Shown here in pieces: positions 40,823 through 63,154 of a stretch of DNA of 64,000 nt. A model generated the notes under the pieces. The model ran no database searches. It was not told where the DNA came from and was given only the letters and a program-made list of their open reading frames with translations. A program made the translations under genes and the position numbers. Location: positions 1 to 64,000 of the forward strand of contig CANFTW010000012.1 of the NCBI GenBank assembly GCA_947450025.1. The letters are read 5' to 3'. Source of the stretch: Bacteroidota bacterium (GTDB lineage: Bacteria; Bacteroidota; Bacteroidia; B-17B0; Aurantibacillaceae). How positions within the stretch are numbered: position 1 is the stretch's first letter; each line of letters starts with the position of its first letter.

Positions 40823-40837
40823 TTCCAATAAATGGAA
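40823..40837. promoter_or_regulatory. TTCCA-N5-TGGAA palindrome, site 1
   Basis: TTCCAATAAATGGAA; perfect 5-bp arms. Its end is 40 bp before the -7 box TAATCTTG (40877-40884). Confidence 0.7.
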
Positions 40838-40888
40838 TTTTTTTTTAATTAATTGAATAGTAGTATAAAAAAGTACTAATCTTGTATA

Positions 40889-40966
40889 GGATGTGTTAAC
40901 ACAACGGTTTAGTGATTGATTGTGTTTATTTAGAAAGAGTCATATATATGGCTCTTTCTTTCTTTC
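40889..40966 (+). ncRNA. predicted small RNA unit 1 of tandem array
   Basis: -7 box TAATCTTG (40877-40884) without a -33 TTTG, and site 1 upstream. The transcript would start near 40889, shortly before the palindrome TGTGTTAACACA (40892-40903). It ends at a terminator: GAAAGAGTCAT (40933-40943) pairs with ATGGCTCTTTC (40948-40958) with one G-U, then T-rich. About 78 nt. Confidence 0.5.
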
Positions 40967-40995
40967 TTTATCTTTTTTCTTCCGATTCCCTGTTT

Positions 40996-41010
40996 TTCCA
41001 ATTAGTGGAA
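40996..41010. promoter_or_regulatory. TTCCA-N5-TGGAA palindrome, site 2
   Basis: TTCCAATTAGTGGAA; perfect arms. Its end is 39 bp before the -7 box TATATTTG (41049-41056). Confidence 0.7.
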
Positions 41011-41060
41011 AAAAATAGAATTTAATTATTTTTTTTTTACATCTCGTCTATATTTGTTAT

Positions 41061-41145
41061 ACGTTCTTTTTATAAAGTCTTAATAGAGGGGGCTCTTGAC
41101 TTTTGAAACATAGTTTATTATATAATAATGACTATGTTTTTTTTT
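41061..41145 (+). ncRNA. predicted small RNA unit 2 of tandem array
   Basis: -7 box TATATTTG (41049-41056). The transcript of about 85 nt contains a small AGAG-GGGG-CTCT hairpin (41083-41094 region). It ends at a long hairpin, AAACATAGT (41106-41114) with ACTATGTTT (41131-41139), running into nine T. The body differs from units 3-5, although ACGTTCTTTTT near the 5' end is shared. Confidence 0.5.
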
Positions 41146-41231
41146 GCCATTAACTTTCAAAACATCCATCTAAAGTGTTTGGCATTTCTTTATTTTTTTA
41201 GACTATATGATTTTAGTATAAAAAACTAAAA

Positions 41232-41246
41232 TTCCATTTTAAGGAA
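41232..41246. promoter_or_regulatory. TTCCA-N5-(A/T)GGAA palindrome, site 3
   Basis: TTCCATTTTAAGGAA; one arm mismatch. Its end is 40 bp before the -7 box TATATTTG (41286-41293). Confidence 0.65.
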
Positions 41247-41297
41247 AATTTCATGATTGAATATTTTTTTTTATGAATAATGAAATATATTTGAGAA

Positions 41298-41369
41298 CGT
41301 TCTTTTTTCATATATGGTTTAACAATGCGTAAGTTAAAAAAAGAGTCATTGTTATGACTCTTTTTTTTT
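41298..41369 (+). ncRNA. predicted small RNA unit 3 (repeat copy 1)
   Basis: -7 box TATATTTG at 41286-41293. A transcript of about 72 nt starts next to the palindrome AGAACGTTCT. It ends at AAAGAGTCAT (41340-41349), loop TGTT, ATGACTCTTT, T9. A mini-frame M-R-K-L-K-K-E-S-L-L (ATG 41326, stop in the terminator) is an alternative product. Confidence 0.55.
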
Positions 41370-41423
41370 GCTTTTAATTCATGTAGTTTGAACACTGAAT
41401 ACTTTTATCATAAAAAACTAAAA

Positions 41424-41438
41424 TTCCATTTTAAGGAA
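41424..41438. promoter_or_regulatory. TTCCA-N5-(A/T)GGAA palindrome, site 4
   Basis: TTCCATTTTAAGGAA; its end is 39 bp before the -7 box TACATTTG (41477-41484). Confidence 0.65.
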
Positions 41439-41488
41439 AATTTCATGATTGAATATTTTTTTTATGAATAATGAAATACATTTGAGAA

Positions 41489-41560
41489 CGTTCTTTTTTC
41501 ATATATGGTTTAACAATGCGTAAGTTAAAAAAAGAGTCATATTTATGACTCTTTTTTTTT
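41489..41560 (+). ncRNA. predicted small RNA unit 4 (repeat copy 2)
   Basis: -7 box TACATTTG at 41477-41484. The body is nearly identical to unit 3. The terminator is AAAGAGTCAT (41531-41540), loop ATTT, ATGACTCTTT, T9. The mini-frame would be M-R-K-L-K-K-E-S-Y-L. Confidence 0.55.
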
Positions 41561-41614
41561 GCTTTTAATTCATGTAGTTTGAACACTGAATGCTTTTATT
41601 ATAAAAAACTAAAA

Positions 41615-41629
41615 TTCCATTTTAAGGAA
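41615..41629. promoter_or_regulatory. TTCCA-N5-(A/T)GGAA palindrome, site 5
   Basis: TTCCATTTTAAGGAA; its end is 39 bp before the -7 box TACATTTG (41668-41675). Confidence 0.65.
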
Positions 41630-41679
41630 AATTTCATGATTGAATATTTTTTTTATGAATAATGAAATACATTTGAGAA

Positions 41680-41752
41680 CGTTCTTTTTTCATATATGGT
41701 TTAACAATGCGTAAGTTTAAAAAAGGAGTCATAATTTTATGACTCCTTTTTT
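41680..41752 (+). ncRNA. predicted small RNA unit 5 (repeat copy 3)
   Basis: -7 box TACATTTG at 41668-41675. The terminator stem is AAAAGGAGTCAT / ATGACTCCTTTT, with one extra G-C pair relative to units 3 and 4. Inserted G and C on opposite arms keep the stem paired. The mini-frame becomes M-R-K-F-K-K-G-V-I-I-L and stays open. Confidence 0.55.
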
Positions 41753-41795
41753 CATTTACATATGTTGTTATATTTATGAAATATATTTTTGTTGA

Positions 41796-41898
41796 TATAG
41801 AATGTAAGGCCTTTAAAAATATAGTTGAAGATGTATTTTATATCAGACCTAAGGTTCATTTCAAATAAATAAAAAGAGCCGTAACAAAGGGCTTTTTT
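41796..41898 (+). ncRNA. possible sixth, palindrome-less transcript unit
   Basis: -7-like box TATTTTTG (41784-41791), then about 100 nt, then an imperfect terminator AAAAAGAGCC (41871-41880) / GGGCTTTTTT (41889-41898). No TTCCA palindrome lies at the expected distance. Weak. Confidence 0.25.
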
Positions 41899-41950
41899 GT
41901 TTGTGTTCTTGGATAGTAACATTGATATTTTTTTATTCATACATAATATT

Positions 41951-41965
41951 TTCCATTTTATGGAA
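41951..41965. promoter_or_regulatory. TTCCA-N5-TGGAA palindrome, site 6 (FIST operon)
   Basis: TTCCATTTTATGGAA; perfect arms. The nearest good -7 box, TATATTTG, is at 42031-42038, 66 bp beyond its end. The spacing therefore differs from the other sites. Confidence 0.6.
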
Positions 41966-42030
41966 AAAATATCACTCTATTTATGACAAATGTTATCCTA
42001 TATGTCACCAATGATTAGGTTTGGAATACT

Positions 42031-42038
42031 TATATTTG
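42031..42038 (+). promoter_or_regulatory. -7 promoter box TATATTTG of the FIST operon
   Basis: A perfect TAnnTTTG, about 100 bp upstream of the preferred ATG at 42137. Confidence 0.5.
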
Positions 42039-42136
42039 TTATGTAGATAGATGAAACTTACTTCTGCTTAATCCATTTGGTTATCATGTCGTATTTTGAC
42101 TCATCTTTTTTGATTATTATTTTAATTTTTAAAATT

Positions 42137-43330
42137 ATGTTGAGTTTTCATTCTTCAAGTGCCAGAGTTATTAATACCAAGAGAGGTGTTATAGAGTGTA
42201 TGGAAATTGCTTTAGGAAATTCATATTCAGATTGTGATTTAATTATTTTGCATGCGTCTATTGGGCATGATTTTAAAGAAATGATCCAGCAAGCTAAAGA
42301 AATGGCTCCAAATGCTCGTATTGTGGCCTCCTCTTGCTGTGGGGTTGTTGGACGAGAAGGTGTTAGTGAATCCATGAAAGACATTGCTTTAATGGCAATA
42401 AAAGGTTCTGAATTTGCTGTATCGCATGTGGATGAAATTTATGGTCATAATTCATATGAAAAAGCTTTAGAAATGGCTCATTCATTAAAAAGTCAATCTC
42501 CTAATATTACCATGATTTATTTTCTGGCATCAGGAATTGATATTGCGAATGATTTATGTATTAAAGCTTTTGAATCGGTATTTGGAACAGAGGTAACCAT
42601 TTTTGGAGCAACCTCTTCAGATAATATGAAAGGATTTATTAGCTATCAAGCAGTGGATGATCAGGTTTTTGAACATGGCGCATATGCTGTTGGGTTTTCA
42701 GATCCAACCCTTTCTATTGATACTCAGGCTACTCATGGATTTGTTGCTGTTGGAGAGCCTCTCGTTGTCACAAAATCAAAAGGTCATATTATTGAAGAGT
42801 TAAATGGGAAACCAGCTTGGAAAGAATATACAAGATGTTTAGGCATTCCAGAAGACTCAACGTGTGAAACCTCCATTCCTATAGGTGCATTAGGAGAAAA
42901 ATTATCTTCTGAATTAGCTAAAGAATATGGAAATGAACATATACTAAGAGTAGTTACAAAGCATGATGGCGATAAAATGTATTATGCTACCCAATGTCCA
43001 GTTGGCACTTCATTATGGTTAACTAAAAGAGATGAGGAGTTAATATTTAGTGAAATGGATAGAATGGTGGTTGATATGAAATTACGCTCTAAATGGAAAG
43101 TTCCAGTAGCGGTTTTTCATGCAGATTGTTTAGCCCGGGGTCGATTCTTATTTGATAGGGTCATCAAGGAAGAACTCGTGAGTAAAATGCAACATCCTTT
43201 TTATACTAATGGGATATGTCCTCCTTGGTTAGGAATGTATGGATTTGGTGAATTTGCTCGTTTAGGTGGAAAAAATGAATATCATAATTACACAACATCT
43301 TTATATGTTTTATATAGAGAATCAAAATAG
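42137..43330 (+). CDS. FIST-domain sensory protein
   Basis: The start is taken at ATG 42137 (397 aa) because M-L-S-F-H-S-S-S matches the usual FIST beginning; upstream codons (from TTG 42077) look like an AT-rich leader. The FIST N domain (about 1-205) has C-D-L-I-I-L-H-A-S, A-R-I-V-A-S-S-C-C-G-V-V-G and I-F-G-A-T-S-S-D-N-M. The FIST C domain (about 215-370) has the carbohydrate/amino-acid-sensing-like fold with F-H-A-D-C-L-A-R-G-R and the final G-F-G-E-F-A-R-L-G-G-K-N-E-Y-H-N. FIST proteins are thought to sense small ligands and feed kinases or cyclases. The histidine kinase gene follows 22 bp later. Confidence 0.9.
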   Translation: MLSFHSSSARVINTKRGVIECMEIALGNSYSDCDLIILHASIGHDFKEMIQQAKEMAPNARIVASSCCGVVGREGVSESMKDIALMAIKGSEFAVSHVDEIYGHNSYEKALEMAHSLKSQSPNITMIYFLASGIDIANDLCIKAFESVFGTEVTIFGATSSDNMKGFISYQAVDDQVFEHGAYAVGFSDPTLSIDTQATHGFVAVGEPLVVTKSKGHIIEELNGKPAWKEYTRCLGIPEDSTCETSIPIGALGEKLSSELAKEYGNEHILRVVTKHDGDKMYYATQCPVGTSLWLTKRDEELIFSEMDRMVVDMKLRSKWKVPVAVFHADCLARGRFLFDRVIKEELVSKMQHPFYTNGICPPWLGMYGFGEFARLGGKNEYHNYTTSLYVLYRESK

Positions 43331-43352: not shown

Positions 43353-46300
43353 ATGGACGGTTCGGAAGAATATAATAAATTATTAAAAGCCTATCAGGAT
43401 TTACAGTTACGTGTAACTCAGTTTTCTTTTATTGAGCAAAAATTAATTAATACTCAGGATAAATTAGATTATGAGTTATTGCTTTATAAACGTTTACAGA
43501 ATTTCAATTCCGCTGCTTTAAAAGATTTATCTATGCATGATTTTGTAAGGTTAGTTGCAGAGTCAGTGATAGATGTCTTAGAGTTGGAATCAGCGGTTGT
43601 TTTATTTAAAAATGAAACGGATGATGTGGAATTATTTTTGGAAGGATTTCCAAAACAAGATATTTCTACAACGCAATATATTGATGATACAATATTATTA
43701 GCTAATGATTTAGAGGAAGGAAAAGCATGTATCCTAAATCCTAATCATTTTTATAATATTCCTTCTTTTATTCAATTTTATAGTGGTTTGTTTTTTCAAT
43801 TTACAGAAAAGGAGTTGGGGTATTCTTTTGTTATTATTGGTTTTATTTCTATTAAAAAGGCTCCAATTTATCAGCTTCTTCAAGCTCGCCATGAAACGAT
43901 CTTTAGCGTGTTTGCTCAGCAGGCTCAATCTTTATTAGCTAACAAAATTAAAAATGATAAAATCAAAAATCAAATTGAAAAGATATCATCCTCTGAAATT
44001 GAATTAAAAAAATTATCACTCATTGCAACTAAAACCAATAATAGTGTCATTATTTCAGACGCGGAAGGTAGAATAGAATGGGTAAATGAAGCGTTTACAA
44101 AGGCTTCTGGATATACATTGGAGGAATCCAAGGGTAAAAAACCTAAAGAGTTTTTACAGGGGCGGAATACAGACAAAGCTGAATTAAAAAAATTATCTGA
44201 AGCCATTTATAAAAAAGAAAATATACAAGTCACTTTAATTAATTATACAAAAGAAGGTGCACCTTATTATAATCAGATTGAAGTGACGCCTGTTTTTGAT
44301 GAACAAGGAAATCATTTAAATTATATTTCACTTCAAAAAGATATTACTCAGGAATTAATTAATCAGCGAGAGATTTTACGGATTAATTCGCGATTTGAAT
44401 TAATTACCAGTAAATCAAACATTGGTATTTGGGAATGGGAAGCATCTACAAATAAAGTGGTTTGGAATGATACTTTATTATTACAATATGGGGTTGATAA
44501 GGATAATTATGATAAAATGGATTTTGTCAATTTCTGGAACAATTCTGTGCATCCTGATGACAGTGAGCGTGTGGAGTTTAATACAAATTATTTAATGACT
44601 TCAGATCAGGAAGTATTAGAACAGGAGTATAAAATCATAAAATATAATGATAAAGAAGTTCGAATTGTTAGAGATGTCACCATTGCTGAAAGAGATGAAA
44701 AAGGAACGTTATTGAGATTAATTGGTAGTACGCTGGATATCACAGAAGAACGCAAAAATGAGTTGGAATTACAGCATAATTTAAGACAACAGGAATTGTT
44801 ATCAGAACTAGCTTTAGGATTAAATAACGTGAGTGATTTTGATTCAAGGATTAATTTAGCAATTGAACAAGTTGGATTACATACACAGGTGAGTCGAGTG
44901 TATATTTTTCAAGATGCTGAAAATTCTAAGGTATCTAATAATACTTTTGAATGGTGTAATAAAAATATTAGTTCACAAAAAAATGAATTACAAGGCTTGT
45001 CTTACGAGTCTATTCCTTCACTAAAATCTATTTTATTAGACAAAGGATTATTATACGCTGAAGATATTTCAGTTTTACCAAATGACTTAGTACCTGTCTT
45101 GCAATCACATGATATTAAATCAATCATTATATACCCTTTGTATGTAAAAGGAGTTTATTTTGGATTTATCGGCTTTGATGAATGTTTAATTCATAAAAAA
45201 TGGCTTAAGTCTGAACTCGAATTGCTGCGCACCATTTCTGGTATTATTTCAAATGCTTTTGAACGTGACCTTTCTGAAAAAACTTTGTTAGCGAGTGAAG
45301 AAAAATATAGAAGTATCATTGAAAATATTAATATTGGCCTTCTCGAGTCTAATGTTAACGGTGAAATTGTGTTTCAAAATAAGAAATTTTTTGAATTAAC
45401 ATTGCTTGACAATGCTTCCTTATTAGTCATAAGAAAGGATGCGGAAGCTGATTTGAAAGAGAAAGTGCTAAATGGAAATATTTTATCATACACTAAAATT
45501 GATCAATCGGTTTATGAAATTGAGATTAATCGTTTAGATCATAAATTAATTACTTTATTAGTTAGTTGTGCTCCATCTATCAATCAAGAAGGTGAAGTTT
45601 CAGGATACATCAACGCATACCTTGATATAACAGATATCAAACAAATTGAAAAGGCCGTTTTAAAAAAGAATGATGAATTAAAGAAAATTAATACAGAACT
45701 TGATAATTTTGTATACAGTGTTTCGCATGATCTAAGATCCCCATTGCTTTCCATTAGAGGTATTTTAGATTTAATATCGAAAACTGCATTATTAGATGAC
45801 AAAACGCTACAGTATTTGAATTTAGCTGAAACCAGTGCAAAAAGATTAGATGGAACAATCCAAGAAATTTTAGAATATTCTAAAAATGCTCGTTTTGATA
45901 TTGAGTTAGAAGAATTTAATATCGTTGATATGTTGAATTTGATTTTTGAAGATCTTAAATTTACAAGTAACAATGAGGTTTCTTTGCTGATTGAAATAGA
46001 CGGCCCTCCAATGATATGCTCCGATAAATCAAGAATGAATACCTTATTAAAAAATTTAATTGGTAATTCAGTTAAATATAAAAGGAAGTCAGACACTGAT
46101 TCATACGTAAAGTTTAAATTACACCGTCTTTCAGATCATTTATTAATGGAAGTGGAGGATAATGGAATGGGTATTTCCGAGAAAAGTATTGATAAGGTGT
46201 TTGATATGTTTTATAGAGGAACTAAATCTAGTGTTGGAACTGGTTTAGGTCTTTATATTTGTAAAGAAATTGTCAATAAACTTGGAGGAAGTATTTCAGT

Positions 46301-46367
46301 AAAATCTGAATTAGGAATAGGTACAAGCATGAGTATAAGTATACCAAATAATATTAACTACAAATAA
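43353..46367 (+). CDS. multi-PAS/GAF sensor histidine kinase
   Basis: This soluble kinase has 1004 aa. In order: coiled coil (about 5-55), GAF-like domain (about 50-200), PAS (about 225-340, LOV-like E-F-L-Q-G-R-N-T-D but without the photoactive Cys), PAS_3 with PAC (about 345-465), GAF (about 480-640), PAS (about 645-765), HisKA with S-V-S-H-D-L-R-S-P (His792), and HATPase (about 885-1000) with N-L-I-G-N-S, D-N-G-M-G-I and G-T-G-L-G-L. No transmembrane helix is seen. It lies in an operon between the FIST protein, probably its input, and a single-domain receiver. Confidence 0.92.
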   Translation: MDGSEEYNKLLKAYQDLQLRVTQFSFIEQKLINTQDKLDYELLLYKRLQNFNSAALKDLSMHDFVRLVAESVIDVLELESAVVLFKNETDDVELFLEGFPKQDISTTQYIDDTILLANDLEEGKACILNPNHFYNIPSFIQFYSGLFFQFTEKELGYSFVIIGFISIKKAPIYQLLQARHETIFSVFAQQAQSLLANKIKNDKIKNQIEKISSSEIELKKLSLIATKTNNSVIISDAEGRIEWVNEAFTKASGYTLEESKGKKPKEFLQGRNTDKAELKKLSEAIYKKENIQVTLINYTKEGAPYYNQIEVTPVFDEQGNHLNYISLQKDITQELINQREILRINSRFELITSKSNIGIWEWEASTNKVVWNDTLLLQYGVDKDNYDKMDFVNFWNNSVHPDDSERVEFNTNYLMTSDQEVLEQEYKIIKYNDKEVRIVRDVTIAERDEKGTLLRLIGSTLDITEERKNELELQHNLRQQELLSELALGLNNVSDFDSRINLAIEQVGLHTQVSRVYIFQDAENSKVSNNTFEWCNKNISSQKNELQGLSYESIPSLKSILLDKGLLYAEDISVLPNDLVPVLQSHDIKSIIIYPLYVKGVYFGFIGFDECLIHKKWLKSELELLRTISGIISNAFERDLSEKTLLASEEKYRSIIENINIGLLESNVNGEIVFQNKKFFELTLLDNASLLVIRKDAEADLKEKVLNGNILSYTKIDQSVYEIEINRLDHKLITLLVSCAPSINQEGEVSGYINAYLDITDIKQIEKAVLKKNDELKKINTELDNFVYSVSHDLRSPLLSIRGILDLISKTALLDDKTLQYLNLAETSAKRLDGTIQEILEYSKNARFDIELEEFNIVDMLNLIFEDLKFTSNNEVSLLIEIDGPPMICSDKSRMNTLLKNLIGNSVKYKRKSDTDSYVKFKLHRLSDHLLMEVEDNGMGISEKSIDKVFDMFYRGTKSSVGTGLGLYICKEIVNKLGGSISVKSELGIGTSMSISIPNNINYK

Positions 46368-46372
46368 TACAT

Positions 46373-46750
46373 ATGAAAAAATATCTTTTAATTGACGACG
46401 ATGACATTTTCAACTTTCTTCACTCAGAGGTTATTAAACAAGTTGAGAAATCTCCTGAAATAACAATTCATAGTTCAAGTATTGATGCTTTAGACTTTAT
46501 CAAAGAATGTGTTGAACAAAAGATAAATTTGCCCGATTATATTTTTGTAGATATTAGGATGCCAGAAATGAATGGTTTTGAGCTCATGGATGAATTAATG
46601 AAACTCCCTTTAGAATTATTTGATCAAACAAAAATTTATTTTGTGACATCATCTCTCGATCAGCGAGACCGAATAAAAGCTAAGGATTATCCTATTGTGA
46701 CAGGTTTTAAAGAAAAGACCATTACCTCAGAATTATTAAAGGATATGTAG
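46373..46750 (+). CDS. stand-alone response regulator receiver (CheY-like)
   Basis: This single receiver domain of 125 aa has the acidic pocket L-I-D-D-D-D, phospho-acceptor Asp in Y-I-F-V-D-I-R-M-P-E-M-N-G, Thr/Ser in F-V-T-S-S-L and a Lys in G-F-K-E-K-T. It starts 6 bp after the kinase stop. It probably receives phosphate from that kinase and passes it on, possibly to the Hpt protein encoded convergently just downstream (46751-47074). Confidence 0.92.
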   Translation: MKKYLLIDDDDIFNFLHSEVIKQVEKSPEITIHSSSIDALDFIKECVEQKINLPDYIFVDIRMPEMNGFELMDELMKLPLELFDQTKIYFVTSSLDQRDRIKAKDYPIVTGFKEKTITSELLKDM

Positions 46751-47074
46751 TTATTTAATCACTTTCTCAATTTCTAATATAATTTTTTGAGTGTAAGCTA
46801 TAAATTTCTTTTCACTAAGGGTAATGTCTTTTTTACCCAATTCATTCATCTCAAGTTCTATATGGTCAAGCGACATGATATGAGTGGATAATTTCATTTT
46901 ATGACAAAGCTCAGCAATTTTTTGAAATTCTTTTTTCACTAAATGCTTCTTCACTTTTTCTAAATCTTTAGTGATATTTTTTAGTAATAGTTTAACTGAT
47001 TCTAACACTAATTCATCACTCTTAACCATTTGTTTTAAGCGTGTGGTATTTATTTTGTCAAAATTTGATTTCAT
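46751..47074 (-). CDS. histidine phosphotransfer (Hpt) protein
   Basis: A helical protein of 107 aa with an Hpt-like helix A-E-L-C-H-K-M-K-L-S-T-H-I-M-S-L, where H-K-M-K-L-S stands for the canonical H-x-x-K-G-x-S. Helical segments on both sides complete a four-helix bundle. Its start overlaps the stop of the hybrid kinase upstream by 4 nt, so it is the likely relay partner of that kinase. Its 3' end abuts the receiver gene on the other strand (stops 0-1 bp apart). Confidence 0.82.
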   Translation of the reverse strand: MKSNFDKINTTRLKQMVKSDELVLESVKLLLKNITKDLEKVKKHLVKKEFQKIAELCHKMKLSTHIMSLDHIELEMNELGKKDITLSEKKFIAYTQKIILEIEKVIK

Positions 47075-49762: not shown

Positions 49763-51106
49763 TTAGTTTGTTTTTTTGGTGTCATCAAAACTACCATCAT
49801 TTAGCATTTTGTATATTTTACTTTTGCTAATCCCTAAAACATTGGCTGTTTTTACAACCTGAAAATCATTACGTTTTAAATAATTAAAAATATAACGTGC
49901 CGTGAAATCTTTTAAAGTTGTATTATTTAAATCATAGGATGATTGTAAGTTTGAATTAAATACAATTTCATCCTCAGTAATTGCTGTACCTTCCGATAAT
50001 ACACATGCTAATTCAATAATGGCTCTTAATTCTTTTACGTTGCCAGGATAATTATACCTTAATAATTTCTTTTTTGCACCGTTCGATAATTTTTTATCAA
50101 TGGTATTGTTGCTTCGGCAAAATTCATTCTTAAATTCTTCAGCAATATAGGCTATATCTTCCGTTCGGTCTCTTAATGGTGGTAATTCTATTTTTAAACC
50201 TAAGGTTTCAAAATAGAGTTCTTCGTTTAATTTCTTCTTTTTAAGTAAATCATGCATGTTAAATTTACTTCCTATAATTAATCGATGATTGGTGCCAGCT
50301 GTATATTCTTTTTGTTGCTCATTGTTTTTTATTTTTTTCAGAAACAACATCAACTTGGTTTGCACTGTTAAATTTAAATCTCCAATTTCCTCAATAAAAT
50401 AGGTGCCATTTTTATAGATGGCTAAGTTTTCTGGGATTTTAGTAATGTTATTGATTGCTAAATCAAGATACTTTTCAAAACTTTCAATATCGTGTGAGCT
50501 AATTTCATTTAATGGTAAATGCGATAGTTTAGATGACATATGAATCACCTTTGCTACATAACGTTTACCTGTTCCATTTTCTCCCACAATAGCAATGTTT
50601 AAAGCTGATTGAGAGGCTTTGATAATCAGTTTTTTAATATTACTAATAGCATTACTATGTCCTATTAAAAAGGTATCTAGCTGAATGAAATTTTGAAACT
50701 GATTTTTTAACGAACTGTTTTCTTCAACTAATTTTTTTTCTTTGATATAGGTTTTAATGATTTTATTGGCGTGTTCAAGAGAATGCTCATCTTTAATGAT
50801 ATAATCATCAGCCCCCATTTTAATTAGGCTCGTCGCTACCTTAATATCGGTTTGAGAGGAAACTATCACAATTTTGATGGTAGGATTATATGACTTGTAT
50901 TTTTCAATAATCTCGTTGGCCAACAAATCAGGTAGGCGATAATCTAAAATTATAAAATCTGGATTTTGGTTAATCTTTTTTAGGACCGATTTGCCATTAA
51001 AATAAGATTCACATTTTAATTGTTTATTTTCCGACAGAGAATCTAATAATAGTTTATTATAAAATTCATCATCTTCAACTATAAATGTTTTATAAATGCC
51101 TTCCAT
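49763..51106 (-). CDS. response regulator with degenerate sigma54-type AAA+ and Fis HTH
   Basis: This 447-aa protein has a receiver (1-120, Asp55 in F-I-I-L-D-Y-R-L-P) and an AAA+ domain (about 145-385) with Walker A G-E-N-G-T-G-K (175-181) and a changed Walker B Y-F-I-E-E-I-G-D (236-243). The stretch between them is shortened and lacks the G-A-F-T-G-A loop and the usual E-L-F-G-H segment. The Fis-type HTH (about 395-440) has F-Q-V-V-K-T-A-N-V-L-G-I-S-K-S-K-I-Y-K-M-L. It therefore should bind DNA but not remodel sigma54 polymerase. It is the best local candidate to bind the TTCCA-N5-TGGAA palindromes (inference). Confidence 0.88.
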   Translation of the reverse strand: MEGIYKTFIVEDDEFYNKLLLDSLSENKQLKCESYFNGKSVLKKINQNPDFIILDYRLPDLLANEIIEKYKSYNPTIKIVIVSSQTDIKVATSLIKMGADDYIIKDEHSLEHANKIIKTYIKEKKLVEENSSLKNQFQNFIQLDTFLIGHSNAISNIKKLIIKASQSALNIAIVGENGTGKRYVAKVIHMSSKLSHLPLNEISSHDIESFEKYLDLAINNITKIPENLAIYKNGTYFIEEIGDLNLTVQTKLMLFLKKIKNNEQQKEYTAGTNHRLIIGSKFNMHDLLKKKKLNEELYFETLGLKIELPPLRDRTEDIAYIAEEFKNEFCRSNNTIDKKLSNGAKKKLLRYNYPGNVKELRAIIELACVLSEGTAITEDEIVFNSNLQSSYDLNNTTLKDFTARYIFNYLKRNDFQVVKTANVLGISKSKIYKMLNDGSFDDTKKTN

Positions 51107-56000: not shown

Positions 56001-58589
56001 GGAGTATTCAATTTGATATTGAAGCGTAGAAATTGTTAATGGTGTGTTATCGGTTGGTGCAGTTACGGTAGCATATGCACTAGCGTTAGCACAGCCAGCT
56101 TGCGCTGTAGTAAAAGACCATACACTACAACCACTTGCTGAACCTAATGAATTTGATGGGATTACTTGCCAATAATAAGCAGTGCTGTTTAATAAAGTTG
56201 CAGGCACATACGTTAAACCTGTTTGGTTAACCGATACAGTTGTTGTAGGAGGGTTAGTTGTGCCAAATAATACAGTATAACCAGTTGTAATTGTATTAGT
56301 TGCCCATGATAAAGTTGGGGTAATACTAATACCCGTTGCTCCATTGGTAGGCGCTGTTGGTGCTGCAATACAAGGTGGCGGTGTAGTAATTACTGGATCT
56401 GGTATAACGGTAAAGGTATAATCTTCATACTCTCCATAAGTTGCGGGTCCGCATTGTGTTATGGCTCCAATATAACTATTGGCAACACGCATACGATAGT
56501 TACCATTTGCAGTACTAGCAGGAATAGTTATAACTCCCGTGTAACTTGCAGAATAGGTTGTTGTAGCAAAAATAGTTTCATTGGCATCTAAAAAGTCTAA
56601 ATCATTATTCCAATCTATCCAACAATAAAAGTAGTCTGTTGTAATTGCTGGTGTTAATGTAATATTAGTTGCGGCGTAAGTGTAATTTGAACAACTAATA
56701 GAAGCACTATAGTTACTATAGCCTCCTGCACCTGCCCCCGTAGCATTAGAGATATTAGTAACCCCATTTGCAGTGACAACATTAGACATATAATAGGTAG
56801 TTGAACCTACAGGTTGACAATAGCCAGTATAAAAGGATAAAACGGAGGTCCATGCACTGGTATTACCACTACCACAATTTGATCTTACCCAAATATAATA
56901 AGTAGTATTAGCTGTTAAACCAGTTAAAGCCACTGAGGTGGTACCCGCTGCCGTAGAGCCAGTAGGTATAGTTGCTCCGTTTGGTGCCGTATTAGTAGTA
57001 GATAAATAATATTGGTATCCCGAGGTTGGAGCTGGAGATGCAGCAGTCCAAGAGATGTTTGCACTTGAGGCCGTTATTGAACTAGATGTTAAAGCAGTTG
57101 GTGCTACACATGAAGGAGCAGAAACTACAGTAAAGGTATAATCTTCAAATTCTCCATTTGTTGCTGGGCCACATGACGATGCAATAACACCTGAAAAACT
57201 ATTAGCCACACGCATTATGTAATTTCCATTTGGTGTTGCAGCAGGAATATTTATAACACCTGTATAACTTGCAGAATACGTTGTTGTAGCAAATATGGTT
57301 TCATTGGCATCTAAAAAGTCTAAATCATTATTCCAATCTATCCAACAATAAAAGTAGTCTGTTGTGATTGCTGGTGTTAATGTAATATTAGTAGGATTTG
57401 TAAGGTAATTGGAGCAGCTAATAGTAGCACTATAGTTACTATAGCCTCCTGCACCTGCCCCCGTAGCATTAGATATATTAGTAACCCCATTGGTAGTGAC
57501 AACATTACTTAGGTAATAAGTTGTACTACCTGTTGGCACACAATAACCAGTTGTAAATACTAAAACAGAGGACCAACCACTTTGAGTTCCACCACAATTT
57601 GATCTTACCCAAATATAATAAGTAGTATTGGCTGTTAAACCAGTTAAAGCCACTGAGGTTACCCCTGCTGCCGTAGAGCCGGTAGGTGTAGTTGCGCCGT
57701 TTGGTGCCGTATTAACAGTTGATAAATAATATTGATAGCCAGAGGTTGGTGCTGGCGAAGCAGCAGTCCACGAAACGTTAGCAGAGGTTAAGGTAATACC
57801 AGAAGCTGTTAAACCACCAGGTGCTATACAAGAAGGAGGAGTCCAGCGGTAAATTTGCCCACTTGCTGGCTTTGTAGCAACACTCGTTGAACCATAAAAA
57901 CAGGTTGCCGTATTGGCTCCACCTGCAGTAGAAGCAGCCCAACTACCACCAGTTGCTACTGTTCTGTTATTAAAGTCAGTAACAACCGATCCCCTTAACC
58001 CTACTTGAGGATAAACCGTACTTACTAACACTGCATTTGTGAAAGCACCATAAATTACTTCAACCACATTAGTAGTTTGGTATAATTTAATTTGATAAAA
58101 TAAACGCTCTGCAGTTGTAGCTGTAGTATATCTTTTAGCATCAGACCATTGAACAGTAAACACACCGCCTGTTGATGAATATTGAACGTTACCTAAAGGC
58201 GCTGTAGCTTGTGCATTTTGATCTCTAGCAAAAGCCGCTACAACTCCAGAACCATTTATTGTTGAAATTGGAGTATAAATAGCATTTAATCCAGCAGTTC
58301 CAAAAATAATATAACCATTACTATTAACAGTTACACTTGAGTAAGCAGTACCATTAAAGGTAAAACTAAACCCAATAGGTACTAGTGTCGCTGCATCATC
58401 CCAAGCGCTTCCTGCGTTCATATTAGTAACAGCTGTACCTGTAATAGCAGTATATGTACCTGCTAATTGAGAGAAACTGTAGGCACTTACTTGGGCTTTT
58501 AGGTTTGTTTGCGCGGCTATTAAAACAAAAAGTAAACAGGTTGTTTTAATAGTTGCACTCAGCCGTTGTTTTAGGGTTTTAAGCGTCAT
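53034..58589 (-). CDS. giant T9SS-secreted surface protein with FN3 and GEVED domains
   Basis: About 1851 aa from ATG 58589; an upstream in-frame ATG at 58649 would add 20 residues before the signal peptide (hydrophobic core T-C-L-L-F-V-L-I-A-A). Order: an N-terminal Nidogen-like beta domain, then FN3 and GEVED, repeated (FN3-GEVED-FN3-GEVED) as two near-identical units of about 241 residues. Further FN3/Ig-like regions, a jelly-roll MAM-like region (E-S-F-S-G-S-S-A-P-G-W) and a final L-P-I-E-L-T-D-F-T-A-T block follow. The type A sorting domain ends the protein (I-Y-P-N-P-N-K-G ... G-I-Y-Y-I-T-V-K). It is probably an adhesin or gliding-related surface protein. Confidence 0.88.
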   Translation of the reverse strand: MTLKTLKQRLSATIKTTCLLFVLIAAQTNLKAQVSAYSFSQLAGTYTAITGTAVTNMNAGSAWDDAATLVPIGFSFTFNGTAYSSVTVNSNGYIIFGTAGLNAIYTPISTINGSGVVAAFARDQNAQATAPLGNVQYSSTGGVFTVQWSDAKRYTTATTAERLFYQIKLYQTTNVVEVIYGAFTNAVLVSTVYPQVGLRGSVVTDFNNRTVATGGSWAASTAGGANTATCFYGSTSVATKPASGQIYRWTPPSCIAPGGLTASGITLTSANVSWTAASPAPTSGYQYYLSTVNTAPNGATTPTGSTAAGVTSVALTGLTANTTYYIWVRSNCGGTQSGWSSVLVFTTGYCVPTGSTTYYLSNVVTTNGVTNISNATGAGAGGYSNYSATISCSNYLTNPTNITLTPAITTDYFYCWIDWNNDLDFLDANETIFATTTYSASYTGVINIPAATPNGNYIMRVANSFSGVIASSCGPATNGEFEDYTFTVVSAPSCVAPTALTSSSITASSANISWTAASPAPTSGYQYYLSTTNTAPNGATIPTGSTAAGTTSVALTGLTANTTYYIWVRSNCGSGNTSAWTSVLSFYTGYCQPVGSTTYYMSNVVTANGVTNISNATGAGAGGYSNYSASISCSNYTYAATNITLTPAITTDYFYCWIDWNNDLDFLDANETIFATTTYSASYTGVITIPASTANGNYRMRVANSYIGAITQCGPATYGEYEDYTFTVIPDPVITTPPPCIAAPTAPTNGATGISITPTLSWATNTITTGYTVLFGTTNPPTTTVSVNQTGLTYVPATLLNSTAYYWQVIPSNSLGSASGCSVWSFTTAQAGCANASAYATVTAPTDNTPLTISTLQYQIEYSTINSVVAGNVYVSSYSLGGYITVHQGTPAGPIIAYGATPLTWTATVAGTYYVHYNTTAYPACGTASSAGTSVITCTSCPPPPINYLAQIQSVNFGSSDWCAGETRTVTVTVKNNGVQTWTNAAPDINIGIKWNTNGTNWADYYVRTDANGLAPGAIGTYSLVITASNATNGPAYTTPLSVGLNNLIVDLVSEQNFWFADNINGGGPGNVKYTSPAISINSYPTITAPTNTSVCIALTTPLTATVPTITKTFLSESFSGSSAPGWSVTTTGSAWTSATNPITINASANAGGAANEVMFYYNGSTATNRCVLYYGPINTTGYTSLNLSFKQYLSTCCAGTYPYTIAVKTGNNATGWGAGAPTVWSSVNPAANITANTTTMSISNANVGSSTFYLAFIVDGMTYGLNGWYIDDVVLTAPVTPTVTWAATTGLYTDNAATTAYTGTNTYTVYSSPPSSQTYTATANSLGCNTTSTVSVTLNTPTIATTMASGDLVWNGRVSTDYTNLNNWYGYSGTTYTNAAAAPTSANNIVIPVTQNCIINQPNTGTNTVAAKKISIETGATLTMGAGVFNVAGQWFNNGSFTPSTGKVVFNGSGSQNIVRNNGTATEVFYDVEVSKSAGAITINNPVEIINSTTFTNGLINSTATNLYIFRDGATAIGANSRSFVNGPVQKIGTQAFTFPIGKGVEYAPASITAPSTNTDKFTAEYFAADPDLSGYSNLTRDPTIDHISYCEYWMIDRTNGNSSPKVTLSWGSTRSCGVTFMPDLLVSHWDAGTSTWQDLGNGGTTGSTTNGDVTTLNNVNSFSPFALASLSRNNPLPIELTDFTATCSNSKVYVNWNTATELNNQYYTLERSGDGVHFEPITYVNGHGTTVSANHYSYIDEAPLSGISYYRLKQTDFNGTSKTFRIESVSCDKSNDISIYPNPNKGSFVVNGTSAGAELIVTDIVGKVILQTITTAEQTSVDLTKFSTGIYYITVKQNGINTTKKVAIN
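56398..57840 (-). repeat. internal tandem duplication, period about 723 bp
   Basis: The stretch around 56577-56640 recurs almost identically around 57300-57363, and the GATCTTACCCAAATATAATA word at 56880 recurs at 57600. The duplicated unit encodes one FN3 plus one GEVED domain (about 241 residues). High nucleotide identity suggests a recent duplication or gene conversion. Confidence 0.85.
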
Positions 58590-58751
58590 AGGTGTATGTT
58601 GTTTAGTGAAAGAAAAACAATGAAAAGATTTTTGGATGTGCGTTTTCATGGTAGTGATATTATCAAATTGTAAATACTAAATTATTGATGTGTTACTAAT
58701 GTTATAAATTTCATTAATTCTATAATGATATTAATACTGTTTGTATTTTTT

Positions 58752-58766
58752 TTCCATTTTTTGGAA
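58752..58766. promoter_or_regulatory. TTCCA-N5-TGGAA palindrome, site 7
   Basis: TTCCATTTTTTGGAA; perfect arms, in the divergent intergenic region between the giant T9SS gene and the 58949 gene. No good -7 box lies at 39 bp on either side. Confidence 0.6.
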
Positions 58767-58843
58767 TACGGCAAAATATCTATTTAGGTGTTTCATTTAA
58801 ATATAAAATCTAAACATGACAATTATCAGCCTCTAATCCTATT

Positions 58844-58858
58844 TTCCATAAAATGGAA
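58844..58858. promoter_or_regulatory. TTCCA-N5-TGGAA palindrome, site 8
   Basis: TTCCATAAAATGGAA; perfect arms. On the minus strand a TATATTTA box (58798-58805) begins exactly 39 bp away, facing the giant T9SS gene. On the plus strand AATTTTTG (58885-58892) begins 27 bp away, facing the 58949 gene. Confidence 0.65.
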
Positions 58859-58948
58859 AATATTTTTAATAAATGAGCCTTCCCAATTTTTGGTACGAAA
58901 TTTATGGCATGGTATATGTTAATATATTATAAACTAAAAAAAACTGTT

Positions 58949-60337
58949 ATGAAAACAATAACTACAACAAAAAAAATAATGGCCGTAGCAACAATGTTAT
59001 GCGCTATGAATGCAAATGCTCAGTCAGTGATTTGGACTGAAGATTTTGGAACATGCAACACAGAGGGTAGTAAAAACCAATCAGTGGCTAATTATAATGG
59101 CGCTAATGGCGCATGGACTATTGATGCTCAAGGCGACAATGGTGCTTCTCCAAACAAATGGTACGTGAGTGCTATGGAAATTGGATCAACCTCAGGTGTT
59201 TGTCAAAAACAATTTTCACTTGGTCAAGGTGCCCAAAGTAATTGTTTGCATATAGGCGAAAATATGGTAAGAAGTTTTCATCAAGGAGTGAAAACTTCGG
59301 TAGGTGATGCGGGAGCTTCTTATAATATCAGTAATATTAGTCAAACAAACGTAACGGCAGTTTCTCCAGCAATTAACTGTACTAATTTTGAAAGTTTACG
59401 TTTAAGTTTCGATTATTTTTCTGGAGCTCGTCCTGGTGCTGATGTTTTATTAACTGCCTTTAATGGAAGTGAGTGGGTACTATTAGATAAAATTCGTTCA
59501 ACTAAAAGTGGTGCTTGTGATACTTATGGTAAAATGCAATGGAATTCTTCCGATGTATACACCTTGCCAGCATCTTTCAATAATATTGAAAAATTAAAAA
59601 TTGGATTTCAATGGGTAAATGATTCAATTGCATATCCTGATGCCGATGGTGATGCTATGAATCCAGGGTTAATTGGAAAATTTATTTCCGTAGCTATTGA
59701 TAATATTAAGATATCTGGTTCTGATATAAGTAATGTTGGTGGTGGAGTAGGTAACGCTAGAACAGCTAACTCAAAAATGATTACTGCTACTGCAAGTTCA
59801 AAACAAAATGAGTCAAGCATTAGTTTTACTACTAATTATGAAAAAGCACCTGCACAAGATTTAATTATTGAGCGCAGTACAGATGGTACTACTTTTGTGG
59901 ATATTGATAAAGTAGTGAGTAAAGCAGTGAAAGGAAAAGTAAATACTTTATCTTATACTTACAATGATGCTACAGCAAAAGAAGGCGCTAACTATTACCG
60001 CGTGAAACAAGTGGTTGAAAAAAATGTAGTGGCTAAATCTAAAGTGGTATCTACTAACTTTATTAAAGAAAAAAATGTAAAATTCACTGTGTATCCAAAC
60101 CCTAACAGCGGCCAGTTTACCATTGATTTTTCAGGGATTGAAAATAACCACGAAGTACAAATCTTTTTAAATGATATGAATGATGGGCACGAAGTGTATA
60201 CAACTTCTTTCATGTCAAACTCAATTGATTCAAACAAAATGGACATTAACCCTCCAGGAAAAATTACTCCAGGCAGATACATTTGTTCATTAGTATGCGA
60301 AGGCATTAAAATGAGTTTAATTGTTGTGATTCAATAA
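58949..60337 (+). CDS. T9SS-secreted surface protein, MAM-like
   Basis: The start is taken at ATG 58949 (462 aa), where a clean signal peptide begins (M-K-T-I-T-T-T-K-K-I-M ... A-N-A-Q). An earlier ATG at 58904 would add 15 residues. The mature part starts I-W-T-E-D-F-G-T-C and folds as a jelly-roll MAM/CUB-like domain to about residue 230. It is followed by an FN3-like region (L-I-I-E-R-S-T-D-G-T-T-F) and a type A sorting domain (V-Y-P-N-P-N-S-G-Q-F). No enzyme motif is visible. Two TTCCA palindromes lie upstream, so it may belong to the proposed regulon. Confidence 0.82.
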   Translation: MKTITTTKKIMAVATMLCAMNANAQSVIWTEDFGTCNTEGSKNQSVANYNGANGAWTIDAQGDNGASPNKWYVSAMEIGSTSGVCQKQFSLGQGAQSNCLHIGENMVRSFHQGVKTSVGDAGASYNISNISQTNVTAVSPAINCTNFESLRLSFDYFSGARPGADVLLTAFNGSEWVLLDKIRSTKSGACDTYGKMQWNSSDVYTLPASFNNIEKLKIGFQWVNDSIAYPDADGDAMNPGLIGKFISVAIDNIKISGSDISNVGGGVGNARTANSKMITATASSKQNESSISFTTNYEKAPAQDLIIERSTDGTTFVDIDKVVSKAVKGKVNTLSYTYNDATAKEGANYYRVKQVVEKNVVAKSKVVSTNFIKEKNVKFTVYPNPNSGQFTIDFSGIENNHEVQIFLNDMNDGHEVYTTSFMSNSIDSNKMDINPPGKITPGRYICSLVCEGIKMSLIVVIQ

Positions 60338-60431: not shown

Positions 60432-61622
60432 TTAATGTGGTGTGGTTACTTCAATGTTTGTCACATGCTCTTCGTTAGCAGGATTGGAATACCTCACGTT
60501 TACCTGCGATGGAGATATTCCCATAAAAATCATATCATCGGTTTGTTCTAAACTACCTTGCCATTTTCTTAAAAAAATATCTAATTCAATTTCTCTTTTT
60601 AAAGGCGGCATGGTTGATAAATTATTTAAACATTCCAATAAGCCTTTTTTCATTAATTTTCTGGATTGTGGCCCACCAAACTGATCGGTAATACCATCCG
60701 AGAAAAAATAAAAATAATCGTCTTCGCCATAAGGCAAGGTATAAAACGGAATGTCATCTAAACTATGAATGGGCGCACCAATACTAGCGCCTTTTAAACT
60801 ATAGTATTGCATGGTTTTTTCTTTAGCGCTATAGTGTATAAACGGTCGTTTAATTCCTGAGATTTCAATTTTAGATTCGCTAGGAACGATGCGGAACATA
60901 ATTAAATCTAATCCATCGGAGATGCCATCATCTTTTCCTAAACGAGATAAGTTTCGGATGATGCTATTATTTAAACGATTAATGACCGTTTTTAAATCTT
61001 TATTTTTTCGGATGTTACTCGTAATAATTTCGTGACTTAATACAGAGAGTAATGCCGCGGGAATGCCATGCCCAGTGCAATCGCCAATACCACCAACAAT
61101 ATCGCCATGTCTTTTGCGTGGTACCATGAATGAGAAATCACCACTGATAATATCTTTAGGACGGCAAATGTATAAACTGTTGGCAAAGTTTTTATGAATT
61201 TCTTGTCGCTGCGGAAAAATTGCTTTTTGAATTCTTTCGGCGTATAAAATAGAATCGGTTAATACATTAATGGAATCAATTACTTTTTCTAATTCATCAG
61301 GTGCTAAGGGTTTTGATAAAAACCCTTTCATATTGGTGTTTAACGCTCTTTTGTAATTGGAATCTTCCGTGTTTCCTGAAATATACACAACGGGTATTGA
61401 TCTAATTTCCTGAATACGTTTCATGGTTTCAATTCCATCTAAGGAATCTTCCAATCTAATATCCATCATAATTAAATCAGCGGTATTGTCTTTAAAAAAA
61501 TCAATCACATCGCTGCCTCTTTCAAAACAGGCTACCACATTATGTCCTAAATTTTCAACATAATGCCTGTGTAATTCTTGAATAATAAAATCGTCTTCTA
61601 CGATAACTATGTTTTTTTTCAT
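60432..61622 (-). CDS. response regulator with PP2C/SpoIIE-type phosphatase output
   Basis: This 396-aa protein has a receiver domain (1-120) with V-E-D-D, phospho-acceptor Asp in L-I-M-M-D-I-R-L-E-D-S-L-D-G and Lys in F-L-S-K-P-L. The phosphatase domain (about 130-375) has R-P-K-D-I-I-S-G-D-F-S-F, G-I-G-D-C-T-G-H-G-I-P-A-A-L-L-S, F-S-D-G-I-T-D-Q-F-G-G and Q-T-D-D-M-I-F-M-G. The metal aspartates are in place. It is 5 bp from the kinase stop and in one operon with it. Targets would be anti-anti-sigma-type or other Ser/Thr phosphoproteins, none of which is encoded nearby. Confidence 0.9.
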   Translation of the reverse strand: MKKNIVIVEDDFIIQELHRHYVENLGHNVVACFERGSDVIDFFKDNTADLIMMDIRLEDSLDGIETMKRIQEIRSIPVVYISGNTEDSNYKRALNTNMKGFLSKPLAPDELEKVIDSINVLTDSILYAERIQKAIFPQRQEIHKNFANSLYICRPKDIISGDFSFMVPRKRHGDIVGGIGDCTGHGIPAALLSVLSHEIITSNIRKNKDLKTVINRLNNSIIRNLSRLGKDDGISDGLDLIMFRIVPSESKIEISGIKRPFIHYSAKEKTMQYYSLKGASIGAPIHSLDDIPFYTLPYGEDDYFYFFSDGITDQFGGPQSRKLMKKGLLECLNNLSTMPPLKREIELDIFLRKWQGSLEQTDDMIFMGISPSQVNVRYSNPANEEHVTNIEVTTPH

Positions 61623-61627
61623 ATTCT

Positions 61628-63028
61628 TTATAAAGTAAATTCCATTTCAAATAAAAAATTATTGGATATTGGAAATTTGTAAGTTCCTTTTAGTTGTTTC
61701 ACTAAGTTGCTCATCATTTTTAAACCAAATCCGCCACTATTTAAATCGGTCACATTTTCTGGTAATCCTAAACCAGAATCTTGATATTTTAAAAGTACTG
61801 TTGTGTCTTTTACAGTAATATCAAAGCTTATGTGTAATACATTATTAATTAAAGCATATTTGCAGCTATTTGAAATAAGCTCACTTACTAATAATCCAAG
61901 CGGGATGGCATGAGCAACATTGATATTTAGATGAGTTGGAATTTCGTTACTAAACATAATGTTTTTAACGCCATCTGCATTATACAAACTTTTAAAATGT
62001 TTGGTTAATTCAATGATATAGTCAGCAATATTCACAAAATTAAAATTCCCACTTTGATATAATTTTTGATGAACCAAAGCAATACTTCTAATCCGCACTT
62101 GGATATCGGTAATGTTTTCAATTAAGACCGCATCTTTAATTCGTGCTTTTTTTAAACCCAAAAGACCATCTATAATCGCTAAATTATTTTTAACACGATG
62201 GTGCACTTCTCCCATTAATACGGTACTTTCAACCACCGAAGCCTCAAGTAATTTAATCGTATCTTCAAGATGTTTAATTTTATCTAAAGATTCTTTTTCT
62301 TCAGTAATATCATTAAAAAAACTATGAGCAGAGGTTACTTTACCATTTTCAATAATGGGCACCACATTTCCTTTTAATAATATTCGGTGACCAGATTTGG
62401 TGATAAATTTTACTTTTACATCCTGAATTTTTCTGCCGCCTATAACTTGTTTAAATAAAATTCGACAAGCCTCTCTATACTCTTCATCAATTAAATCAAA
62501 TAAATTAATGTCAATCGCATCAAAAGGGGTGTATTCAAATTTATCGTACCAAGCTTGGTTGCAAAATATGAGTTTTCCTTTGGTATCAAATCGCTGAATG
62601 ATTTCTAGGCCATGTTCGTATAAATCTTGATATTTTAATTCATTAGAAATAAATTCTTTTTCTTTAAGTACTAATTGAGTTTGGTCAATCACCGAACCGA
62701 AAATATAGGTTACATGATTTGGATTTGAAATGATTCTGGAGTTCATAATCACATGAAACTCAGTACCATCTTTTCTTAAACCAATGCCCGTATATTCTTT
62801 TAAGAATTTTTCTTGCTTTAATCTTTCAAGAAAAATGTCACGAGCTCCTTTATCTTTATAAAAATTGACCGCAGGGATCTTTAAAAATTCAGCTTTATCG
62901 GTATAACCAAATATTTTCAACATTTCCTCATTGCAATCCAGCATTTGTCCTTCTGGCGAACTAATGTATATCCCGCAATTTAAATCGGTAAATAAGTAGT
63001 CTAGGATTTCGGGATAATTTATTTTCAT
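61628..63028 (-). CDS. PAS-containing HisKA_2-type histidine kinase
   Basis: The start is taken at ATG 63028 (466 aa), because the -7 box TAACTTTA (63040-63047) and palindrome site 9 lie just upstream. A longer frame from 63118 would include them. Two PAS domains (about 5-120 and 130-250, with PAC) are followed by HisKA_2 with M-G-E-V-H-H-R-V-K-N-N-L-A-I-I-D. The HATPase has L-V-S-E-L-I-S-N-S-C-K-Y-A, D-S-G-L-G-L and G-G-F-G-L-K. No membrane helix is present. Its partner is the REC-PP2C protein encoded 5 bp downstream. Confidence 0.9.
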   Translation of the reverse strand: MKINYPEILDYLFTDLNCGIYISSPEGQMLDCNEEMLKIFGYTDKAEFLKIPAVNFYKDKGARDIFLERLKQEKFLKEYTGIGLRKDGTEFHVIMNSRIISNPNHVTYIFGSVIDQTQLVLKEKEFISNELKYQDLYEHGLEIIQRFDTKGKLIFCNQAWYDKFEYTPFDAIDINLFDLIDEEYREACRILFKQVIGGRKIQDVKVKFITKSGHRILLKGNVVPIIENGKVTSAHSFFNDITEEKESLDKIKHLEDTIKLLEASVVESTVLMGEVHHRVKNNLAIIDGLLGLKKARIKDAVLIENITDIQVRIRSIALVHQKLYQSGNFNFVNIADYIIELTKHFKSLYNADGVKNIMFSNEIPTHLNINVAHAIPLGLLVSELISNSCKYALINNVLHISFDITVKDTTVLLKYQDSGLGLPENVTDLNSGGFGLKMMSNLVKQLKGTYKFPISNNFLFEMEFTL

Positions 63029-63039
63029 TTTATTGATCT

Positions 63040-63047
63040 TAAAGTTA
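63040..63047 (-). promoter_or_regulatory. -7 box TAACTTTA of the HisKA_2 kinase operon
   Basis: TAnnTTT(A) box on the minus strand, 12 bp before the ATG and exactly 40 bp from the near end of palindrome site 9. Confidence 0.5.
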
Positions 63048-63086
63048 ATTAATCCCGTAAATTTGTCGGGTGATTTTATAAGTTTT

Positions 63087-63101
63087 TCCAAAAAATGGAA
63101 A
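63087..63101. promoter_or_regulatory. TTCCA-N5-TGGAA palindrome, site 9
   Basis: TTCCAAAAAATGGAA; perfect arms. It serves the minus-strand kinase promoter at a 40-bp offset. Confidence 0.7.
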
Positions 63102-63113
63102 AATTCAATAAAT

Positions 63114-63128
63114 TCCATTTTTTGGAAT
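63114..63128. promoter_or_regulatory. TTCCA-N5-TGGAA palindrome, site 10
   Basis: TTCCATTTTTTGGAA; perfect arms, between sites 9 and 11 in the divergent region. Centres of sites 9 and 10 are 27 bp apart and of 10 and 11 are 26 bp apart. Confidence 0.65.
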
Positions 63129-63139
63129 AAATAGCTTTT

Positions 63140-63154
63140 TCCAATTCACGGAAT
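63140..63154. promoter_or_regulatory. TTCCA-N5-(C/T)GGAA palindrome, site 11
   Basis: TTCCAATTCACGGAA; one mismatch. Its end is 38 bp before the plus-strand -7 box TAATTTTG (63192-63199). Confidence 0.65.

Follow-up and report, generated by a model that had tools for sequence, protein, structure and literature searches.

A palindrome at fixed spacing from sigma-A-type promoter boxes marks a regulon in Bacteroidota, with an NtrC-family protein lacking the GAFTGA loop as its candidate regulator

In a 64,000-nt stretch of contig C12 (hereafter the window) from the 3.2-Mb genome of an uncultured Bacteroidota bacterium (G000; assembly GCA_947450025.1, family Aurantibacillaceae), the palindrome TTCCA-N5-TGGAA recurs at a fixed distance upstream of TAnnTTTR promoter boxes. 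The regulon is real, because the sister species G014, a congener, carries 13 sites at exactly 38 or 39 bp before orthologous operons. The palindrome is probably the operator of a sigma54-independent NtrC-family regulator encoded in the window (49763-51106, minus strand), which would recruit sigma-A polymerase to the TAnnTTTR promoters.

Results

Palindrome sites in the window

The exact palindrome was found seven times in the window (starts at 40823, 40996, 41951, 58752, 58844, 63086 and 63113), compared with 0.04 expected, and none of 100 shuffled sequences reached seven. Four more sites carry one mismatch (41232, 41424, 41615 and 63139). The eleven copies listed in a preliminary description, seven perfect and four with one mismatch, were all recovered by pattern search; its last three coordinates (63087, 63114 and 63140) were one base too high. 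The sites count as about nine independent ones rather than eleven, because a single tandem repeat of ~191 bp accounts for those at 41232, 41424 and 41615. The extended form of the operator is TTTTCCA-w5-TGGAAAA.

The description had also called every site intergenic, which holds once the kinase gene called at 61628-63118 (minus strand) is started at an internal ATG. The first-ATG call crosses two palindromes and a promoter, the first ATG itself lying inside a palindrome. The internal ATG at 63028, ~7 nt past the predicted transcription start, is the likely start.

Over the whole of G000, 17 exact matches were counted versus 3 with the reversed pattern, and 7 of the 17 lie inside the window, in 23 kb around the NtrC-like gene. 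Several of the remaining matches fall within genes. About three more real-looking sites lie beyond the window, at C1:164991 (one mismatch), C1:165045 and C8:125467 (L026); at the last of these, the plus-strand box stands at 23 bp rather than 38 or 39 bp, and the motif model favours the minus strand. A literature search for the motif string gave no match.

Spacing between the palindrome and the promoter box

Spacing was measured from the end of the palindrome to the start of the box. A perfect TAnnTTTR stands at 38 or 39 bp from 7 of the 11 window sites; the background over the intergenic regions concerned is 1.9% of positions. If the box may have one mismatch, the figures are 10 of 11 sites and 14.4%. 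Five operators on the plus strand precede small RNA (sRNA)-like units: TTCCAATAAATGGAA at 40823-40837 (unit 1; box TAATCTTG, 40877-40884, spacing 39), TTCCAATTAGTGGAA at 40996-41010 (unit 2; box TATATTTG, 41049-41056, spacing 38), TTCCATTTTAAGGAA with one mismatch at 41232-41246 (unit 3; box TATATTTG, 41286-41293, spacing 39) and the tandem copies at 41424-41438 (unit 4; box TACATTTG, 41477-41484, spacing 38) and 41615-41629 (unit 5; box TACATTTG, 41668-41675, spacing 38). On the minus strand, the operator at 63086-63100 belongs to a kinase/PP2C operon (box TAACTTTA, 63040-63047, spacing 38), and TTCCATTTTATGGAA at 58844-58858 faces the GEVED-kinase-regulator genes; its box TATATTTA was found at 58798-58805 on the strand proposed earlier, at a spacing of 38 rather than 39. 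The operator TTCCAATTCACGGAA (63139-63153, plus strand, one mismatch) precedes an operon for a lipoprotein, a FIST protein, a kinase, a response regulator and a LytTR protein (box TAATTTTG, 63192-63199, spacing 38).

Three sites are without a convincing box at 38 or 39 bp. These are TTCCATTTTATGGAA at 41951-41965 (plus strand), upstream of the FIST operon, where a site at the equivalent location has a box in G014 (spacing 38) and G004 (37); TTCCATTTTTTGGAA at 58752-58766, between the GEVED gene (minus strand) and the gene of a protein sorted by the type IX secretion system (T9SS; plus strand); and TTCCATTTTTTGGAA at 63113-63127, in the same divergent region as the 63086 site, to which no box was assigned.

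Given the flavobacterial box placement at -12 to -5 (PMC9723704), the dyad centre lies near -58/-59. A spacing of 38-40 bp and a centre at about -60 had been proposed; the fixed spacing and the activator-type position stand, with the values narrowed to 38 or 39 bp and -58/-59. The absence of a -33 TTTG, to which the description had pointed, has no diagnostic value, since Flavobacterium johnsoniae likewise yielded no -33 motif (PMC7366714). In Flavobacterium psychrophilum, sigma-A promoters likewise carry TAnnTTTG from -12 to -5 (PMC9723704), whereas the final base varies here between A and G (13 A and 10 G in 23 sites) and expression would depend on the upstream dyad. No further conserved element was seen in the spacer between dyad and box. 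Likewise, no -24/-12 sigma54 promoter elements were conserved at the targets, which have TAnnTTTR boxes at fixed spacing instead.

The sites and their spacing recur in sister species

For comparison, 87 genomes of the family, including G000, were searched for the palindrome followed by TAnnTTT at 38-39 bp. The search returned 13 spaced sites in G014 and 3 exact ones in G000. Seventeen such sites fell in the 4 genomes that encode the candidate regulator (G000, G014, G004 and G015) versus 6 in the 83 that do not, and the reversed control gave 6 in the full set of 87. With the spacing left free between 24 and 54 bp, 13 of the 27 boxes in G014 stood at 38 or 39 bp (~1 expected, P = 4e-11). All 13 of these G014 sites have a purine at position 8 of the box, a base that the search pattern had left free. 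The genome-wide count, the rigid spacing and the conserved targets in G014 support the earlier proposal of an undescribed regulon with a palindrome at an activator position.

As a held-out test, a motif model built from G000 and G014 sites only was scanned over G004 (3.7 Mb). Its two best matches, at G004 C12:14991 (1.3e-4) and C12:32303 (0.006), flank the regulator gene (C12:21869-23197). In G000, G014 and G004, the region ~55-85 bp ahead of the regulator gene also contains degenerate, half-matching sites.

A degenerate NtrC-family protein is a strong candidate regulator

No regulator had been put forward in the preliminary description. The protein encoded at 49763-51106 is an NtrC-family response regulator composed of a receiver, a degenerate AAA+ domain without GAFTGA and a Fis-type helix-turn-helix (HTH), and is a strong candidate for the regulator of the palindrome. 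The receiver (Response_reg, 1.8e-14) keeps the phosphoacceptor D55 in 4 of 4 orthologues, and the central domain scores Sigma54_activ_2 at 7e-18 and AAA_lid at 3e-16. The best solved relative is the NtrC-family chain 4l4u (full-length match, 1e-45). The C-terminus is colinear with homologues scoring HTH_8 at 5e-7 (full-length homologue L066). Its HTH, QVVKTANxLG[IV]SKSKIY, is near-identical in the 4 orthologues, and the end of the recognition helix reads SKSKIY throughout the clade versus GKSTIY in most homologues.

Orthologues (1e-207 or better; next best 1e-89) are present in 4 of the 87 family genomes, and both genomes with at least three spaced sites, G000 and G014, are among them. Across the ~85,000 species genomes scanned, the only close relatives other than the protein of the window were the same three.

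The motor parts of the AAA+ domain are lost in all four orthologues. The GAFTGA loop is deleted, while it is present in 21 of 23 other homologues, mostly from Bacteroidota. Both arginine fingers (positions 294 and 300) are replaced, by N/I and E, the Walker-B aspartate by E/N and the sensor-II arginine by K, compared with R/R, D and R, respectively, in 23 of 23 homologues. The protein should therefore be unable to drive sigma54 polymerase, judging from these residues, and sigma-A-type boxes are expected at its targets, as found. Sigma54 promoters were rejected for this regulon on the missing GAFTGA and the lack of conserved -24/-12 elements, although rpoN (sigma54) is present in the genome. 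Two Bacteroidota NtrC homologues, L120 and L133, do not match the GAFTGA pattern and have intact catalytic residues; they possibly carry variant loops.

The shape of the operator also fits this family. Fis and NtrC bind dyads of 15-17 bp with a YA-N5-TR-type core (Fis GnnYAwwwwwTRnnC, with an AT-rich centre; NtrC GCACC-N5-GGTGC), and the palindrome has C/YA-w5-TG/R over 15 bp, differing in its outer bases, TTC/GAA.

Alternative explanations of the palindrome

Several observations weigh against the assignment to the NtrC-like regulator. The Pfam HTH_8 score of the protein itself is weak (0.03-0.16), and the AlphaFold2 (AF2) model from four sequences (pLDDT 58) is too poor to use. G004 and G015 have few sites, both being regulator-positive, and G009, one of 16 regulator-negative congeners, has a single model match at 2.4e-4. 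The best site of G015 overlaps the regulator start codon; it may be partly coincidental and is counted weakly, because half of the match is the conserved coding start ATGGAA. To these is added the distribution of a second DNA-binding protein, a LytTR protein whose orthologue occurs only in the two motif-rich genomes, G000 and G014; for this reason, co-occurrence alone does not choose between the two proteins.

That the palindrome is bound by a DNA-binding protein encoded outside the cluster, for example of LysR, Crp/Fnr or TetR type, with the cluster merely a target, is unlikely, if slightly less so than the other alternatives. LysR/MetR-type proteins also use 15-bp N5 dyads, and a dyad centred at -58/-59 is generic for activators. 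However, the gene of such a factor would need the same rare distribution as the motif, and both the clustering of exact sites around the NtrC-like gene and the best G004 sites flanking it speak against an outside factor.

The stand-alone 118-aa LytTR protein (C12:67393-67749), encoded at the end of the operon that starts at 63224, could bind the palindrome in its own promoter and be linked to a phosphorelay through the adjacent receiver. Its DNA-binding domain is clear (2.7e-14), and the operon belongs to the targets in G000 as well as in G014. Against it, the protein is only 41-44% identical between these two genomes while the operator is unchanged, G004 has exact palindromes at corresponding promoters without a LytTR orthologue, and the LytTR sites known so far are arranged as direct repeats rather than as a compact dyad of 15 bp. 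The LytTR protein is thus improbable as the binder. The same gene (L030:3393-3749) adjoins a single-domain receiver in the FIST/kinase operon, an arrangement that amounts to a split response regulator.

We consider it similarly improbable that the NtrC-like regulator binds the palindrome and works from -58 as a repressor or anti-activator. The GAFTGA-less NtrC of Caulobacter both represses and activates (PMC10274813), but the rigid 38/39-bp spacing at -58, with no sites within the core promoter, is typical of activation.

Chance or a repeat artefact of AT-rich tandem repeats and palindromic terminators has a negligible probability and was rejected: three sites are tandem copies and one G003 match is a terminator-like hairpin, but the window shuffles and the recurrence of the same spacing in an independent genome refute it. 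RNA terminator or attenuator hairpins were rejected as well, as the sites lie upstream of predicted starts; the G003 match was set aside.

Target genes and operons

The preliminary description had placed sRNA-like units, a FIST operon, a kinase/PP2C operon and a lipoprotein/FIST operon behind the sites, and sites recur at corresponding places in G014. The FIST operon comprises a FIST-domain sensor protein (42077-43330, plus strand), a PAS/GAF histidine kinase (43353-46367, plus) and a single-domain response regulator (46373-46750, plus). Sites lie upstream of this operon in G000, G014 and G004, and in G014 and G004 the operon begins with an FKBP-type gene and a lipoprotein gene. A literature search on FIST domains with Bacteroidetes and histidine kinase gave no match.

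Both G000 and G014 have sites in the divergent region that separates the kinase/PP2C operon from the lipoprotein-FIST-kinase-response regulator-LytTR operon. On the minus-strand side of this region lie the PAS/HisKA_2 kinase (61628-63028, from the internal ATG) and a response regulator with a SpoIIE/PP2C phosphatase output (60432-61622), which is 70% identical in G014. On the plus-strand side, the first gene encodes a small lipoprotein (63224-63724), and the operon continues to about contig position 67750.

Sites also adjoin kinase/NtrC-like genes and T9SS-secreted neighbours in G000, G014 and G004. In the window, these neighbours are a large secreted GEVED/fn3 protein with a T9SS sorting tail (53034-58649, minus), a target, and a T9SS-sorted secreted protein (58904-60337, plus) adjoining the sites at 58752 and 58844. 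Further targets in G014 are a universal-stress protein, an SprB-repeat surface protein and an FKBP-type protein. In G015 (contig C30, L224:1547-1602), two near-palindromes 41 bp apart are flanked by a lipoprotein gene and the gene of an esterase-like, T9SS-sorted protein and possibly mark a target in a fourth species.

Five sRNA-like units

The units behind the first five operators all lie on the plus strand. Unit 1 (40889-40959) has a hairpin and an intrinsic terminator (40932-40959; fold z -4.06). Unit 2 (41060-41143) has the 5' end UACGUUCUUU and a terminal hairpin with a U-run (fold z -2.78). Unit 3 (41298-41367) starts with CGUUCUUU and ends in the terminator GAGUCAU-loop-AUGACUC; it is supported by fold and terminator and has a homologue in G014. 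Unit 4 (41489-41558) is a tandem copy, supported likewise by fold and terminator, and in unit 5 (41680-41751), supported by fold, an A-U pair of the terminator stem is replaced by G-C in a compensatory change. The 5' end GAGnACGTTCTTT and the GAGTCAT-loop-ATGACTC terminator, with this compensatory change, are common to units 3-5 and the G014 unit, a pattern present only in G000 and G014 of the 87 genomes. An Rfam search gave nothing above the gathering score and three sub-threshold matches at chance level. The sRNAs are presumably expressed.

The 5' end common to units 2-5 (within 40889-41751), ACGUUCUUU, is unpaired in units 3-5 and could be a pairing seed. Directly downstream of the G014 unit lies a cluster of dispersed GC-rich repeats (TGTCACACTGAGC...; contig C32, L024:2040-2340).

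Phosphorelay neighbours and a proposed mechanism

Genes for a candidate phosphorelay lie next to the regulator on the minus strand. They encode two hybrid histidine kinases (PAS-HisKA-HATPase-REC, 47071-49686; GAF-HisKA-HATPase-REC, 51213-52895) and a 107-aa HPt-like phosphotransfer protein (46751-47074) with His58 in an invariant ELCHKMK. When the AF2 model of this protein was searched with Foldseek, HPt domains (BarA, ArcB) were among the top matches (probability 1.00, best E 0.035); the Pfam Hpt score was only 0.13.

We infer that the regulator binds the palindrome, that a phosphorelay feeds it and, from the position of the sites, that it activates rather than represses. In the proposed mechanism, the regulator would receive a phosphoryl group at Asp55, probably by way of the hybrid kinases and HPt protein encoded beside it, and a dimer of its Fis-type HTH would bind the dyad centred at -58/-59. 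It would then recruit housekeeping sigma-A RNA polymerase to the TAnnTTTR -7 box, acting class I-like from the fixed spacing and without ATP-driven remodelling. The targets would be the five tandem sRNAs, the two FIST/kinase/response regulator operons, the kinase/PP2C operon and large T9SS-secreted surface proteins, and may include the gene cluster that appears to hold the regulator's own gene, which would give feedback. For the whole of this picture, a phosphorelay with a pseudo-ATPase NtrC-family output that recruits sigma-A polymerase from a -58 dyad and drives an array of a new sRNA family together with surface-protein and signalling operons, the chances appear evenly balanced.

Discussion

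That NtrC proteins without GAFTGA act at sigma70 promoters is established for Proteobacteria (PMC10274813). NtrC of Rhodobacter capsulatus and Caulobacter resembles the regulator described here in its receiver-AAA+-Fis HTH order, the deleted L1/GAFTGA loop, the housekeeping-type promoters and the dyad operator. However, Caulobacter NtrC keeps ATP binding and hydrolysis, which matter for it, whereas here the Walker-B aspartate, both arginine fingers and the sensor-II arginine are lost too. The phylum, operator and targets also differ, no nitrogen genes were seen and the site is fixed at -58. VpsR of Vibrio cholerae is likewise a GAFTGA-less bacterial enhancer-binding protein working with sigma70; its signal, c-di-GMP, and its targets are different, and no close sequence kinship is shown.

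The arrangement of hybrid kinases, an HPt protein next to an NtrC-type regulator and several sRNA genes as targets, here five sRNA-like units, recalls the Vibrio LuxU-LuxO-Qrr system. LuxO needs sigma54 and has sites ~100 bp upstream, whereas sigma54-dependent sRNA promoters are absent here, the promoters being sigma-A-type with sites at -58, and the sRNAs have no sequence kinship with Qrr. The likeness to LuxQ-LuxU-LuxO-Qrr is at most a convergent functional analogy, not kinship.

In the open-licence literature, no sigma54-independent NtrC-family regulator was found described in Bacteroidota, the single full-text match being a survey of the sigma54 regulon. While GAFTGA-less NtrC at sigma70 promoters is known, new features here are the phylum, the further ATPase loss, the operator with its fixed placement at -58 and the array of sRNAs.

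Few transcription-factor operators are known in Bacteroidota. The present case supplies an operator and its promoter geometry, a regulator whose motor loss can be traced, a list of conserved targets and a candidate family of sRNAs, and makes it possible to test directly how a simple polymerase recruiter arises from an ATP-driven enhancer activator. If the proposed mechanism is true, the system would be a sigma54-free counterpart of LuxU-LuxO-Qrr.

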